From NCBI GenBank assembly GCA_025451535.1, contig JANWKE010000079.1, positions 1-37,457 of the forward strand: DNA of 37,457 bases. Direction: 5' to 3'. Origin of the DNA: Verrucomicrobiia bacterium (GTDB lineage: Bacteria; Verrucomicrobiota; Verrucomicrobiia; Limisphaerales; UBA11358). The notes under the pieces are model-generated. The model was not told the DNA's origin and did no database searches. It was given only the letters and a program-made list of their open reading frames with translations. Shown here piece after piece: positions 8,053 through 35,986 of the stretch; within the stretch, counting starts at the first letter, position 1; each line of letters begins with the position of its first letter. Made by a program: the position numbers and the translations under genes.

Positions 8053-10402
<2,350 letters not shown>

Positions 10403-10408
10403 GTAAAA

Positions 10409-10990
10409 TTATTTTCTCCGGCAGGTTCTGACGGTCCTGACGCGATAGGGTGGTGCGGTTTCGCGAACGTGAAAACCAATCTCGCGCCGCTTTTCCGGCA
10501 ACGGCGGTTCAATCAATTGCCGGATCGCTTCAAATAAGTTGGCCATGGCCTCGTCATGTCCGCTGACACGATTTTCCAATTCGTTCAGCTTTTGCGCCAA
10601 TTCCTTGTGCGCAGCCAGTTGTTCGCGCATCAATACAAAGGCGCGCACCACGCGGACACTGGCTTCGACCGCCGTTTGACTGTTCAAAACACTGGCCAAC
10701 ATCAGTGCGCCATGCTCGGTGAAAACCACTGGCAAATGGCGATGTCCACCGTGCAAACTTGAGGTCGCAATTTGCGACCTCAAGTATGTAAGTTCTTGGT
10801 TTGTAAGTTCAAACGCAAAGTCATTGGGGAATCTTCCGGCGTTTCGTCGGAACTGTTCCTTCAGCCGTTTCGTGGTCACGCCATAAATCCGTGCCAAATC
10901 GAAATCCAGCATGACCCGCTGCCCGCGAATCAGATAAATCATATCTTCGATCCGTAGCACTGGCACGGTTTTGGTTTTGTAGCTGACCAT
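10409..10990 (-). CDS. ORF6N domain protein inserted in the atp operon
   Basis: The 193-residue product has an N-terminal ORF6N domain (about 8-95), a putative DNA-binding fold best known from phage antirepressor-like proteins. Visible family motifs are RGQRVMLDFDLARIYGV, FRRNAGRFPNDFAFELT, YLRSQIATSS and LPVVFTEHGALMLASVL. The second half is helical (MREQLAAHKELAQKLNELE) and probably dimerises. It is not a known ATP synthase part. It lies between atpA and atpG with 6-nt gaps on both sides, so it is expected to be co-transcribed with them. The segment coding for LRSQIATSS is a near-perfect palindrome at 10758-10784. Its role here is unknown: a chromosomal selfish or mobile gene, or a local regulator, are both possible. 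The family call is firm; any function is inference. Confidence 0.92.
   Translation of the reverse strand: MVSYKTKTVPVLRIEDMIYLIRGQRVMLDFDLARIYGVTTKRLKEQFRRNAGRFPNDFAFELTNQELTYLRSQIATSSLHGGHRHLPVVFTEHGALMLASVLNSQTAVEASVRVVRAFVLMREQLAAHKELAQKLNELENRVSGHDEAMANLFEAIRQLIEPPLPEKRREIGFHVRETAPPYRVRTVRTCRRK
10758..10784. repeat. 12-bp-arm palindrome inside the ORF6N gene
   Basis: 'cttgaggtcgca' (10758-10769) and 'tgcgacctcaag' (10773-10784) are perfect reverse complements around a 3-nt centre. On the coding strand the palindrome encodes the family motif LRSQIATS. It is long enough to form a cruciform or RNA hairpin, or to bind a dimeric protein. A 9-bp direct repeat, 'gaacttaca' in coding orientation, flanks it just upstream in the gene. 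Confidence 0.85.
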
Positions 10991-10996
10991 GAAAAT

Positions 10997-12529
10997 TTAG
11001 TGATACGTTTGCTTGAACTCGGTCACCGCCGCTTTCAACTCCGCCGCCAGGGCGTCGCTGATGGCCTTCTCGCTGCGGATCTTCGTCAACAAATCCGCTT
11101 TGCGCGTATTGAGGTAGTCGGTGAGTTTGGCCTGAAAATCCTTGATCTTCTCCACCGGCACGTCGTCCATGAAATTATTCTGCACCGTCCAAAGCACCGC
11201 CACCTGCGCCTCCACCGGCAGCGGATGGTATTGTTGCTGCTTGAAAACTTCCACGATGCGCTTGCCGCGCTCGAGTTGCGCCTGTGTCCGGGCGTCGAGG
11301 TCTGAACCAAACTGCGCAAACGCCGCCAGCTCGCGGAACTGCGCCAGGTCGCCCTTGATGCGGCCGGCGACCTGTTTCATCGCCTTGACCTGCGCCGCCG
11401 AGCCGACGCGGCTTACGGACAAACCGACGGAGATCGCCGGACGCACGCCTTGATAAAACAAATCCGTTTCCAGATAAATCTGCCCGTCGGTGATGGAAAT
11501 CACGTTGGTCGGAATGTAAGCCGAGACGTCGCCGGCCTGCGTCTCGATGATGGGCAGCGCGGTGAGCGAACCGTTGCCGTAATTTTCGGAAACGCGCGCA
11601 CTGCGTTCGAGCAGGCGGCTGTGCAGATAAAACACGTCGCCGGGATACGCCTCGCGGCCCGACGGGCGCTTGAGCACGAGCGAAACCTGCCGGTACGCGA
11701 CGGCGTGCTTCGACAAATCGTCGTAAATGATGAGCGCATCCATGCCGTTGTCCATGAACCATTCACCGATGGCCGCGCCGGCGAACGGCACGAGGTATTG
11801 GTTGGTGGCCGAATCGGAGGCCGAAGCGGTCACGACAATGGTGTAAGGCATTGCGCCCGCTTCCTCCAAAACCCCGATGACCCGCGCGATGTTCGACTGT
11901 TTCTGGCCAATGGCGACGTAAATGGAGTACAGCGGCCGGTAATTTTTATCACCCGTCTGCGCGGCGGCCTGATTAAGCCGCGCGTTATTGATAATGGTGT
12001 CCACGCCAATCGTCGTCTTGCCGGTTGAACGATCGCCGATGATCAACTCGCGCTGGCCGCGGCCGATGGGGATCATGGCATCAATGGCCATGATGCCGGT
12101 TTGGACCGGCTGGCTGACGGACTTGCGTTTAATGATGCCGGGCGCGATTTTTTCCACCGGATAAAATCCGCTTTCCTTGATGGCGCCCCTGCCGTCCAGC
12201 GGCTGGCCGAGCGCGTTGACAACGCGGCCGAGCAGGCCTTTGCCGACGGGCACCTGCAACAGCCGGCCCGTCGTGCGAACCTCGTCGCCTTCCTTGATTT
12301 CAGTGTAATCGCCGAGAATGATCGCACCGACCTCGGTTTCTTCCAGATTCAGCGCGATACCGGTGATGCCGTGGCCGAAGTCCAGCATCTCGTTGAGCAT
12401 CGCGTCGGTAAGGCCTTCAATTTTGGCCACGCCGTCGCCGATTTCGCGGACAACGCCGACGTTTTGTTTCGCCGTCGCGAGCTTCACGCCCGCAATTTGG
12501 GCTTCAATTTCCTGCAATAGATTGCTCAT
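10997..12529 (-). CDS. atpA: F1Fo ATP synthase alpha subunit
   Basis: The alpha subunit forms the F1 hexamer with beta and carries non-catalytic nucleotide sites. The 510-residue product shows the Walker A motif [11 protein letters not shown], Walker [18 protein letters not shown] and the signature [17 protein letters not shown]. The length is normal. A purine-rich 'ggaaaagaa' precedes the ATG. It begins 24 nt after atpH and ends 6 nt before the ORF6N start; in most operons atpG would follow here. Confidence 0.98.
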
Positions 12530-30219: not shown

Positions 30220-30597
30220 TCACGCTTCCAAGACGGCCATGGCCGCGGCGTAATTCGCGGTATGGCTCAAGCTGACCAGCAACCGTTTCGCCCCACGGGA
30301 GGCAGACAATTGTTCACCCTTGCCATGCAACACCACCAATGGTTCGCCGGATTCTCTGCGCCGGATTTCCATGTCCTGCCAGCCGAGCGCCGCGCCAATG
30401 CCGGTGCCGAACGCCTTGGAGATGGCTTCCTTGGCCGCGAACCGCGCCGCCAGGAACGGGGCGGGGTTCTTGTGCGACCGGCAATACGCGATTTCATCCG
30501 GCAGCAAAATCCGGTTCACAAAGCGCTCGCCGAATTTCTCGTAGGACGCGGCGATGCGCGCCACCTCGATAATGTCGATGCCAACGCCCAGGATCAT
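30220..30597 (-). CDS. acpS: Holo-[acyl-carrier-protein] synthase
   Basis: AcpS transfers 4'-phosphopantetheine from CoA to the acyl carrier protein. The 125-residue product has the two signature motifs GVGIDIIEVARI with metal ligand Asp8 and FAAKEAISKAFGTG with Glu57. The length is typical. It is preceded by pdxJ on the same strand with about 60 nt between them; pdxJ-acpS order is common in bacteria. The C-terminus is intact up to MAVLEA. Confidence 0.95.
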   Translation of the reverse strand: MILGVGIDIIEVARIAASYEKFGERFVNRILLPDEIAYCRSHKNPAPFLAARFAAKEAISKAFGTGIGAALGWQDMEIRRRESGEPLVVLHGKGEQLSASRGAKRLLVSLSHTANYAAAMAVLEA

Positions 30598-30656
30598 TTG
30601 GATTTACGATTTACGATTTGCGCCTGGCCCGCAAGGAAACTCGCGGGCAGGAATGC

Positions 30657-32026: not shown

Positions 32027-34441
32027 GTGAGACGTCCGCTGGTCAGCGTCGTTTCGTGCTACACCGTTGGTCTGCTGCTCGCCGAAATTTTTCATCCGCC
32101 ACTCGGCGTGCTGTTTGCCATCACCTTTGTCGTTCTCGTCCTCGGTTTTGCCCTCGAAAAATTCCGTCCCTGGCTGATCTGGCTGCTGATTGCGCTGATT
32201 GGTTGGACGAATCTCGCCGACCGTACCACCGTCATTTCGCCGCATGACCTGCGTGCGTTGCTCGGCCATGACACCGCCATCGTGGCCGTGCGCGGCACTT
32301 TGCTGGAAACCCCGCACGTTAAAATCGTCGAACGCGACAACCAGGAAATCGAACACTCGTTGGCCCGGGTCAGAGTTGCCGGACTGCATCGGGAAGAAAG
32401 CTGGCAGCCGGCCACTGGCGAAATCATCGTTACCACGCCCGCCCCGTTGCCCGCCAATTTCTTTGCCGGCCAGCCGGTGGAAGTCACGGGCGTCATGGCC
32501 CGGCCGCCGTCGCCGCTGGCCGAGGGACTTTTTGATTATCGCAACTATCTCGAAACCCGCGGAATCTATTACCAACTCAGGACCGGCTCCACCAACGACT
32601 GGCAATTACGGGCGCCGGTGTTGGCCAATCCACCGTCGACTGACCGGTTTTTAAACTGGTCGAAGCAAACCCTCGCGCTGGGGCTGCCGGTTGAAGACGA
32701 ACCGCTGCGCCTGCTTTGGGCCATGACCCTCGGCTGGCGAACGGCCTTCACCGGCGACATCAGCGAACCGTTCCTGCGCGCCGGCACAATGCACTTGTTC
32801 GCCATTGATGGACTGCGTATTGCCCTGATTTCCGGAATGCTCGTGGCGTTGCTTCGTGTGCTGCAGGTTTCCCGTGGCTGGTGTGGTGTCGTGGCCATTC
32901 CAGTCATCTGGTTTTACACCGCGGCGACCGGCTGGGAATCCTCCGCCATCCGCGCTTCGGTGATGATGACCATCGTGCTGGGCGGCTGGGCGTTGAAACG
33001 GCCCGGCGACACGATTAATTCACTTGCCGCGGCGGCATTCCTCATTTTGTTGTGGGAACCGCGGCAGCTTTTTGAAGCCAGCTTCCAACTTTCGTTTTTT
33101 GTTGTGCTCATCATCGCGCTGATGTTGGTGCCGTTGAACCGGCTCGTTGACCGGTGGTTGCGACACGATCCGCTCTTGCCGGAGGAACTGCTTCCACGCT
33201 GGCGGCGCGCGGCCACCACGACCTTACGGATGCTGGGGCGTTATTGCGCGCTTTCGTTCGCGGCCTAGGCCGGCTCCCTCCCGCTCGCGGCAAAATATTT
33301 TCATCTGTTCAGTCCGGTCTCGACCCTCGCCAACATGGTCGCCGTGCCGCTGGGCACCCTGGCCCTGATGAGCAATCTCGGTGCGCTTCTCTGCGGTACC
33401 TGGCTGCCCTGGGTAACGGGATTGTTCAACCATAGTGCGTGGTTTTTCATGGTGGCGATGACGTGGGTCAGCGAAGTTTCCACCAAAATTCCGGGCGCTT
33501 TCTTCTACGTACCCGAACCGTCGTGGTGGGAAATCGGGCTTTATTATACCTTGCTGGTCGGTGGGTTGAGCGGCTGGTTATGGGCGCCAGGACGAAGGAT
33601 TTGGAGCGCGGCGGCCCTGGTTTTGATCGTCGCCGGTTATGTCTGGCACTGGCAAACTACGCGCGACGAAATCAAACTGACCGTCCTGCCGCTCAACGGC
33701 GGTCATTCGGTGTTTGTGGACGCGCCGGGGCGGAAAAATGACTGGCTGGTGGATTGCGGGAACGACAAGGCCGTCGAGTTCACCCTCAAGAATTTTCTCC
33801 GTGGGCAAGGCGTGAACCGGATTCAACGCCTGGTTTTGACCCACGGCGATTTAAAAGCCATCGGTGGCGTGGAACAACTCGACCAGCTTTTCGGCGTCAG
33901 CGAACTTTGGACCAGTCCCGCGAAGTTTCGCTCGACGGCCTACCGCGACGCCGTCTCCGAATTTGAAAAACCACCGGCCCGGCACAAAATTTTCAATTGT
34001 GGCGATGCCGCCGGCCGCTGGCGGGTGTTACATCCGGCCACCCGGGATAATTTCCCGCGCGCAGACGACAATGCGCTGGTATTGTCCGGTGATTTTTCCG
34101 GTGTAAAAATCCTTCTTCTGTCCGACCTGGGACGCCACGGTCAAAGTTCCTTGCTGGCACGCACCAACGATTTGCACGTGGACATCGTGATTGCCGGGTT
34201 GCCGAACGCTGACGAGCCGCTCGCCGACGAATTGCTGGAAGCGATTCAACCGAAGGTGATTGTGGTTGCCGATTCGGAATTTCCTGCGCCGCGCCGCGCC
34301 GCCCATGAGTTGAAGGAACGGTTGGCCGGACGCAACGCGCCGGCGATTTATACGCGCACTGCCGGGGCGGTGACGATTCTGGCGCGCCCGAACAATTGGG
34401 AGTTACGGACGATGGATGGGCAGAAATTGACCTCTCCGTAG
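32027..34441 (+). pseudogene. comEC: ComEC/Rec2 DNA-uptake channel, interrupted by an in-frame TAG
   Basis: ComEC is the inner-membrane channel for transforming DNA. The reading frame runs from GTG at 32027 to TAG at 33266-33268, then continues in the same frame to TAG at 34439-34441; together about 804 codons, a normal ComEC length. The first part has the N-terminal OB-like/DUF4131 region and the Competence membrane domain (MHLFAIDGLRIALISGMLVA). The second part has the remaining helices and a beta-lactamase-like domain (LPLNGGHSVFVDAPG, LVLTHGDLKAIGGVEQL). The metal-binding HxHxDH is degraded. The flanking family pattern is S-x-A-A-W-x-G-S-x-P, so TAG may replace TGG (Trp). Possible causes are a nonsense mutation, an assembly error or suppression. 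Confidence 0.85.
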
Positions 34442-34500
34442 CAGCGGGTGTGAATCCGCTCATGCTTTGCACGAAAAATTAGGGCCGGTTCACGTCGGTC
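34438..34500. repeat. Two-hairpin repeat between convergent genes, copy 2
   Basis: It starts 'gtagcagcgggtgtgaatcc' and has the same two-part layout as 17996-18056: an agcgg/ccgct hairpin, then a gccgg...cgtcgg segment. It overlaps the ends of comEC and folB. It supplies the TAG of comEC and lies around the TGA of folB. Confidence 0.7.
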
Positions 34501-34849
34501 GCCACCTTTTTTTGGCGGTGACCACCGAAACATGCCGTGCCTGTGGGATCGGAAATTTTTTGACCTCGACCATGACACTTTGCGGTTTGAATTCAGCCAG
34601 AATCATATCGGCGAGATCGACGGCCAGTTTTTCGATGAGCTTCCACTCGCGCCCGTCGCCGAACTTCAACAGCCGTTGCGAGACCGCGAAATAATCAATC
34701 GTGTCGGCGATACCGTCGGATTTCGCCGCCTTTGAAAAAACGCAATCCATTTCCACCGTCAGCAACAAACGTTGCGGCCGGGTGCGTTCCTCGTCCGGCA
34801 CGCCGACGTGGTAAGAAACTTCGAGATCAACAATGGAGATTCGGGACAT
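34490..34849 (-). CDS. folB: Dihydroneopterin aldolase
   Basis: FolB cleaves 7,8-dihydroneopterin in folate synthesis. The 119-residue product has the family start SRISIVDLEVSYHVGVPDEE with a conserved Glu, and the catalytic Lys region VEVKKFPIPQARHVSV. The length is typical. Its ATG directly follows the stop of the HAD-Nudix gene with no gap (TAA then ATG on the minus strand). No other folate gene is in the window. The C-terminus runs into a repeat element. Confidence 0.93.
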   Translation of the reverse strand: MSRISIVDLEVSYHVGVPDEERTRPQRLLLTVEMDCVFSKAAKSDGIADTIDYFAVSQRLLKFGDGREWKLIEKLAVDLADMILAEFKPQSVMVEVKKFPIPQARHVSVVTAKKRWRPT

Positions 34850-35986
34850 TTATGATTTACGATTTATGTTATTTGATTTGGCGGAACGCGAGAGGCCGGA
34901 TGTGACATGCGAGCCGCTGGTACTTCCCTTTAATATTGCTTCCAGCAGGATTCTGGTGGGTGTGTTCAGGGGCATTTTCAGCGTCCCGGCGGTGCTGATC
35001 CAGCGGAATTCGCGCGCTTCGTCGTTTAATGTCACAACCGGTTTGCCGGCGCAACGGCAGGTGTAATTCAGCAGCACGAAATGTGCGTCGCGATAAAACT
35101 CTTTTGAGTGGATGCAATCCTGCACGAGCACGAACCGGATGTCCGTGACGTCGAGTCCGGTTTCCTCCTTGATTTCACGGCGCAACGCGTCCACCGACGC
35201 CTCGCCCCACTTGATTTTGCCGCCGGGAATGCCCCAGAGATTCGACCATTTGTGCGTGCGAATCATCAATACCTCGTCCGCATCATTGAAGATCAGCCCG
35301 CCGACGGTGGCCAGCGGCGGATGAATTTCCTCAAATTTTTCCGTTTCCGGCTTCAGGCGCATATCGTCCTGCTCCAAAATGTGGCGCAATTCGCCGAGAT
35401 GTTCGACAATCACATCCGGTTTCACCTCGCGCAGTTGTTCCAGCGTGTTGTAACCCGTCAGTACCGCACAGGAATGGATGCCGCCATATCGAGCGGTTTC
35501 AATGTCGTGCTGCATGTCGCCGATGAAAAGTGTTTCATCGGGCACCAGTCGATTTTCAGCAAGGATTTCGTGGATTTTTTCCCGCTTGTCCAAAACACCG
35601 GTGTAAGGCCGGTCCAGGAAGCCATCGAAACCGGTCACGCGGCTTTGAATCGAAAAATGGTCGTGATGGATGGTGCTCAACACAAAGGTGCGCACATGGC
35701 GGGCACGGCAAAATTCAAGGAAATCGCGCGCGTACGGCAGTTCCGCCACCGAATCCTGAATTTCACGGTAATGGCTGTGGAACCAGTCTTCCAGTTGTGG
35801 CAACGGCACGTGCGGCGTGTGGCGATGGTAAAAATTCGTGAACGGCAGGGAAAATTCCGCGCGGAATTCCTCCAGCGACATTTCCGGGCGGTCGGCCCGG
35901 CCGAGAACGAAGTTGGTCGCCTTCCAGACGGCGGGCAGATCGTCCACCAGCGTGCCCGACCAGTCGAAGATGATATTGCGAATCAC
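34850..35986 (-). CDS. HAD hydrolase-Nudix hydrolase fusion
   Basis: The 378-residue product joins two enzymes. The N-terminal part (about 1-210) is a HAD phosphatase with motif I FDWSGTLVD (Asp8; the usual second Asp is Ser10), motif II (VLSTIHHD), Lys in LDKREKIHEIL and motif IV IGDMQHDIETA. The C-terminal part (about 225-350) is a Nudix hydrolase with an intact Nudix box (G-x5-E-x7-R-E-x2-E-E-x-G-L, about 254-276). Both may act on phosphates or nucleoside diphosphates. Missing Asp10 means catalysis differs from the classic HAD scheme, as in phosphonatases. The frame is continuous with no sign of a broken junction. It abuts folB with no gap. Confidence 0.9.
   Translation of the reverse strand: MIRNIIFDWSGTLVDDLPAVWKATNFVLGRADRPEMSLEEFRAEFSLPFTNFYHRHTPHVPLPQLEDWFHSHYREIQDSVAELPYARDFLEFCRARHVRTFVLSTIHHDHFSIQSRVTGFDGFLDRPYTGVLDKREKIHEILAENRLVPDETLFIGDMQHDIETARYGGIHSCAVLTGYNTLEQLREVKPDVIVEHLGELRHILEQDDMRLKPETEKFEEIHPPLATVGGLIFNDADEVLMIRTHKWSNLWGIPGGKIKWGEASVDALRREIKEETGLDVTDIRFVLVQDCIHSKEFYRDAHFVLLNYTCRCAGKPVVTLNDEAREFRWISTAGTLKMPLNTPTRILLEAILKGSTSGSHVTSGLSRSAKSNNINRKS

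Follow-up and report, generated by a model that had tools for sequence, protein, structure and literature searches.

On the dihydroneopterin triphosphate route to folate, a pyrophosphatase and then a phosphatase are required before dihydroneopterin aldolase, FolB, can act (PMC1971073). Nudix enzymes are already known for the first of these steps, and FolQ was discovered via its clustering with folate genes; for dihydroneopterin monophosphate, a 2007 paper invoked a non-specific phosphatase (PMC1971073), and a 2026 review of the bacterial pterin pathway still marks the step "unidentified phosphatase" (PMC13259868). A comparable orphan phosphatase, of riboflavin synthesis, was assigned by assay in 2025 (PMC12051542). 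Searches of open-access literature found neither a report of this HAD-Nudix fusion or of the HAD-FolB fusion nor a HAD protein assigned to dihydroneopterin monophosphate. Here we describe a gene of a soil-type verrucomicrobial bacterium in which a HAD and a Nudix domain are joined directly upstream of folB, and which offers a specific, testable role for a phosphatase step that has long been without a gene.

A HAD-Nudix gene and its junction with folB

The window (the whole stretch of DNA that was analysed, 37,457 nucleotides) contains the following features.

34850..35986 (-): HAD-Nudix fusion gene, 378 aa, GTG start, TAA stop
35372..35986 (-): HAD domain, residues 1-205, core and C1-type helical cap (Pfam HAD_2, VIA-align)
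35939..35965 (-): HAD motif I DWSGTLVDD, residues 8-16 (from the sequence; invariant in 97/97)
35585..35587 (-): codon of HAD motif III Lys134, invariant
35504..35521 (-): HAD motif IV GDMQHD, residues 156-161 (G, D, M, H and D invariant)
34940..35317 (-): Nudix domain, residues 224-349 (Pfam NUDIX 8.5e-22, Nudix fold matches)
35153..35221 (-): Nudix box GKIKWGEASVDALRREIKEETGL, residues 256-278, fitting Gx5Ex7REUxEExGU
34853..34927 (-): C-terminal tail, residues 354-378, predicted disordered, unconserved (pLDDT, orthologue ends)
34490..34849 (-): folB, dihydroneopterin aldolase, immediately downstream of the fusion on the same strand

Pfam finds HAD_2 (residues 5-175, E 2e-14) and NUDIX (residues 226-333, E 8.5e-22) in one unbroken reading frame, which bears out the initial annotation of a HAD-Nudix fusion with a serine for the second aspartate of motif I. 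The AlphaFold model of the fusion has a mean pLDDT of 88.7 with both domains confident; the tail falls to 38-47 from about residue 358 onward, and in most orthologues the chain ends near residue 355. The junction with folB described in the annotation is equally real: there is zero gap between the stop codon of the fusion (34850-34852) and the folB ATG (34847-34849), and the folB product matches Pfam FolB at 4.7e-24 and reaches 71.6 bits with TIGR00525 (cut-off 72.15).

The stop codon and tail of the fusion gene are supplied by an AT-rich repeat, TTATGATTTACGATTTATG, at 34850-34868, degenerate copies of which occur elsewhere in the window, for example at 30597-30622. Two further observations concern other parts of the window. 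The ATP synthase operon contains an ORF6N-domain gene (10409-10990, -; Pfam 3.5e-34), which separates the apparent atpG (9518-10402) and atpA (10997-12529). A ComEC-like gene seemingly occupies two frames on the plus strand, 32027-33268 with the membrane Competence part and 33335-34441 with the metallo-beta-lactamase part, reflecting either a frameshift or two genes.

Active sites and family assignment

In full context, motif I of the HAD half reads F-D8-W-S10-G-T12-L-V-D-D, with Ser10 encoded by the TCG codon at 35957-35959. Residue conservation was counted over 97 distinct orthologue sequences, among which there is no variation at D8, W9, S10, G11, T12, L13, V14, D15 and D16, nor at K134, G156, D157, M158, H160 and D161, while residue 104 of motif II is Ser or Thr in all 97. 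The Nudix box is intact (G256-x5-E262-x7-R270-E271-x-x-E274-E275), and E262, R270, E271, E274 and E275 do not vary in these sequences either. Since the catalytic residues never change, both active sites are under strong constraint.

The HAD_2 fold together with D8, S/T104, K134 and D157/D161 agrees with HAD subfamily IA, from which the protein departs at the second motif I aspartate, replaced by Ser10 in 97/97 orthologues. This aspartate is the usual general acid/base of HAD phosphatases. Because the serine is invariant it does not represent a random loss, and D-W-S-G-T is also present in HAD-FolB and stand-alone HAD orthologues, with Ser10 in every form inspected; one of the checks in these other architectures was preselected on the motif, whereas the 97-sequence alignment was not. 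One possibility is that the proton might come from another residue or from the substrate itself. A HAD with an invariant serine at the general-acid position should be of interest to mechanistic enzymologists.

In VIA-align, whose listing covered the HAD half only, this half matches 3sd7 with a Z of 24.5 and an rmsd of 2.3 over 203 residues. Its scores stay below the equivalog cut-offs for phosphoglycolate phosphatase (TIGR01449, 50.3 of 180 bits; PRK13222, 50.5 of 225). Phosphonoacetaldehyde hydrolase (phosphonatase, PhnX) has DWAGT as its motif I; a phosphonatase reading based on this likeness was rejected because the aligned orthologues share no conserved Schiff-base lysine in the cap.

For the Nudix half, MutT, NudI and ADP-ribose types all outrank NudB among family models and solved structures, and NudI (3oga_B) gives a Foldseek TM-score of 0.82 by target. 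The Nudix box Gx5Ex7REUxEExGU of NudB/FolQ is present; with 27.8 bits against the NCBIfam NF006961 cut-off of 103, the fusion is therefore not filed as a NudB equivalog. The other Nudix genes of the genome include a YfcD/isomerase-like gene (L002), a MutT (L003) and a NudE-like gene (L005), and two proteins (L004 and L006) for which NudB is the single NCBIfam model matched at the applied threshold, with 33.6 and 29 bits of the 103 required. The expectation that nudB is otherwise absent stands in so far as the remaining Nudix proteins of the genome all stay below 103 bits (best 33.6), and is weakened by the low score of the fusion itself, because of which NudB activity is not assignable to any Nudix protein by sequence alone. 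Among the Nudix genes of the genome, linkage to folB was found for the fusion only.

Conservation of the fusion and its linkage to folB

The scan of the collection covered close relatives, with one genome per species, and gave 269 candidate relatives. Orthologues at 51-89% identity span the whole chain across the order, so that the fusion is not due to chance. It is present in 53 of the 59 closest genomes, its own included; one (G050) has the HAD half only and five others lack the fusion, three of these five being about 80% complete and also without folB. Among the best 80 of the 269 loci, all Limisphaerales-type, domain profiles place HAD and Nudix in frame in every case, and 70 of the 79 with room on the contig have folB directly downstream in the same orientation, its start at most 437 bp past the end of the Nudix domain. 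In the remaining loci of this set folB is 1.4 kb off (one) or not found in the flank examined (eight), and in one the contig ends. The predicted neighbourhood of fusion and folB thus holds in other genomes, and the HAD half is even fused to FolB in some, so that both adjacency and fusion tie the protein to a folate gene.

In a search of 288 genomes spread over the phylum, further families of the class yielded the full fusion at 44-54% identity (L117-L126). The same HAD half (35-48% identity) and FolB form one chain, with HAD_2 and FolB confirmed by Pfam, in genus g26 (L127-L141 and L145; genomes of 2.2-3.5 Mb), which is probably the gut genus Akkermansia, and also in g65 of family f26 (L156, L157). 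Stand-alone HAD genes adjoin folB at L152-L155, L158 and L159 and lie away from it in family f27; folB is likewise not adjacent in the g58 genomes G236 and G309. In this phylum sample, FolB is present in 44/44 HAD-positive genomes. As a control, 17 folB loci of HAD-less class members contain no relative of the HAD within 6 kb of folB, and one of them (L180) has a single weak Nudix match about 4 kb away. Remote matches in the phylum comprise a Nudix only (G247) and a HAD with motif DWNGT (G280), with folB on other contigs in both. No orthologue was found in the viral contigs searched, and the plasmid search gave weak partial matches at most.

Some relatives show further arrangements. Two g26 genomes (G171, G254), one of them a single 100%-complete contig, contain neither the HAD nor any FolB, and G171 retains FolE2. 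In the f27 protein at L188:1417-2385 (-), a cpYpsA (SLOG family) domain precedes FolB in one chain, and L189, L191 and L192 resemble this fusion by frame length.

The tree of the HAD half requires several architecture changes. The Nudix-less L159 is nested in the Limisphaerales fusion clade, L153-L155 group with the fusions L124/L125, and 18% of bootstrap trees recover a single origin of both HAD-FolB groups, which possibly reflect separate events. The Nudix half was lost several times with the HAD-FolB linkage retained. Given these changes FolB is the firmer partner of the HAD, and the Nudix domain the looser one.

Proposed role in folate synthesis and comparison with known systems

The genome of the window contains FolE2, FolB (in the window) and FolK; FolE was not found in it. 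Of 28 genomes tested, 27 have FolE2 and the remaining one has FolE. Dihydroneopterin triphosphate is therefore expected to form, which calls for pyrophosphatase and phosphatase activities ahead of FolB. The earlier premise of a Nudix step followed by a phosphatase is in line with the described pathway (PMC1971073) and with the presence of folE2, folB and folK.

The fusion is likely a bifunctional enzyme, a pyrophosphatase of dihydroneopterin triphosphate and a phosphatase of the monophosphate, that supplies FolB; comparative genomics supports this two-step reading. The Nudix half would remove pyrophosphate from 7,8-dihydroneopterin triphosphate, the FolE2 product, the HAD half would take the last phosphate off dihydroneopterin monophosphate through Asp8, and dihydroneopterin would be handed to FolB, the product of the next gene; we infer both substrates, the order of the steps and any channelling. 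The genomic evidence argues strongly, for data of this kind, for the HAD step, as fusion and adjacency to the next enzyme arose at least partly in independent events, and is good but indirect for the Nudix step. Because the HAD stays with FolB after loss of the Nudix half, its assignment is the better supported one, and because relatives keep it beside or joined to FolB it is a strong candidate for the phosphatase of folate synthesis. A domain fused to the preceding enzyme type in some bacteria and to the following one in others is evidence of the sort that names genes.

With somewhat less confidence, we also favour the view that D-W-S-G-T / GDMxHD proteins form a distinct HAD subfamily devoted to dephosphorylating dihydroneopterin monophosphate. 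In Verrucomicrobiae this subfamily would accompany FolB, joined to a Nudix pyrophosphatase in some lineages and to FolB itself in others, and would work with serine replacing the usual general acid. Antibacterials target folate synthesis, and the gut genus Akkermansia probably carries the HAD-FolB fusion. Against the folate assignment, family models recognise neither half as an enzyme of this pathway (27.8 of 103 bits with NudB), Ser10 replaces the usual aspartate, and folB is not adjacent in 9/79 loci, in G236 and G309 and in f27.

Other divisions of labour have to be weighed. The HAD may be the folate phosphatase and the Nudix half serve elsewhere, for example in cleaning oxidised or pterin-like nucleotides or as a regulatory pterin sensor, with another Nudix protein performing the NudB step. 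The repeated loss of the Nudix half from a retained HAD-FolB linkage points this way, as do its nearest solved relatives, which are generic MutT/NudI proteins and rank well above NudB, and the weakly NudB-like L004 and L006, either of which could be the pyrophosphatase instead. However, about 97 orthologues show no variation in the Nudix box and at many further positions, and consecutive steps best account for the fusion to the HAD and the linkage to folB, so that we regard a separate Nudix role as unlikely. Slightly less probable still is that the HAD acts after the aldolase, with FolB cleaving dihydroneopterin monophosphate and the HAD dephosphorylating the by-product glycolaldehyde phosphate, a small, phosphoglycolate-like compound. 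The nearest named HAD models are indeed phosphoglycolate phosphatases, though far below cut-off, an archaeal enzyme is annotated "dihydroneopterin monophosphate aldolase" (PMC5041015), and a HAD-FolB fusion is compatible with either order. Yet the FolB domain is ordinary by Pfam, in a family known to use dihydroneopterin, and the HAD is joined to the very Nudix domain that would produce the monophosphate.

The serine raises the question whether the HAD half is a phosphatase at all. It occurs in every orthologue, and phosphonoacetaldehyde hydrolase, a HAD with a non-Asp residue at this position (DxAGT), is not known as a phosphatase; the domain might then be dead or a slow phosphoenzyme and serve mainly as a scaffold for FolB and Nudix. 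The invariance of D8, T12, K134, D157 and D161 would be unexpected in a dead domain, and the HAD is kept alone in family f27, which makes a scaffold role improbable, the least favoured of these readings.

Compared with described proteins, the bifunctional enzyme proposed here combines familiar folds in a new setting. With phosphoglycolate phosphatase-like HADs of subfamily IA (3sd7 and 2ah5; Z 24.5 and 23.6) the HAD half shares the C1-cap fold and motifs II-IV, but it has D-W-S-G-T where they have DxDGT, is 20-22% identical to them and scores far below the equivalog cut-offs of that family. PhnX has a motif I of similar type and a fold match (2iof, Z 19.5), whereas the conserved lysines of the fusion are just K134, K246 and K257, none in the cap, and the genomic context differs. 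A Haloarcula hispanica plasmid protein (WP_023843022.1; L230:1949-3193, +) also carries HAD then Nudix in one chain; its HAD is of another class (Hydrolase_6, HAD-IIA) and its gene lies beside the D-xylose dehydrogenase gene gfo6 rather than folB, and it was set aside as a separate architecture. NudB/FolQ (NF006961, PDB 2o1c) has the Nudix fold, the box and the proposed reaction in common with the fusion, which differs in its low score against that family (27.8 of 103 bits) and in having its Nudix domain joined to a HAD domain.
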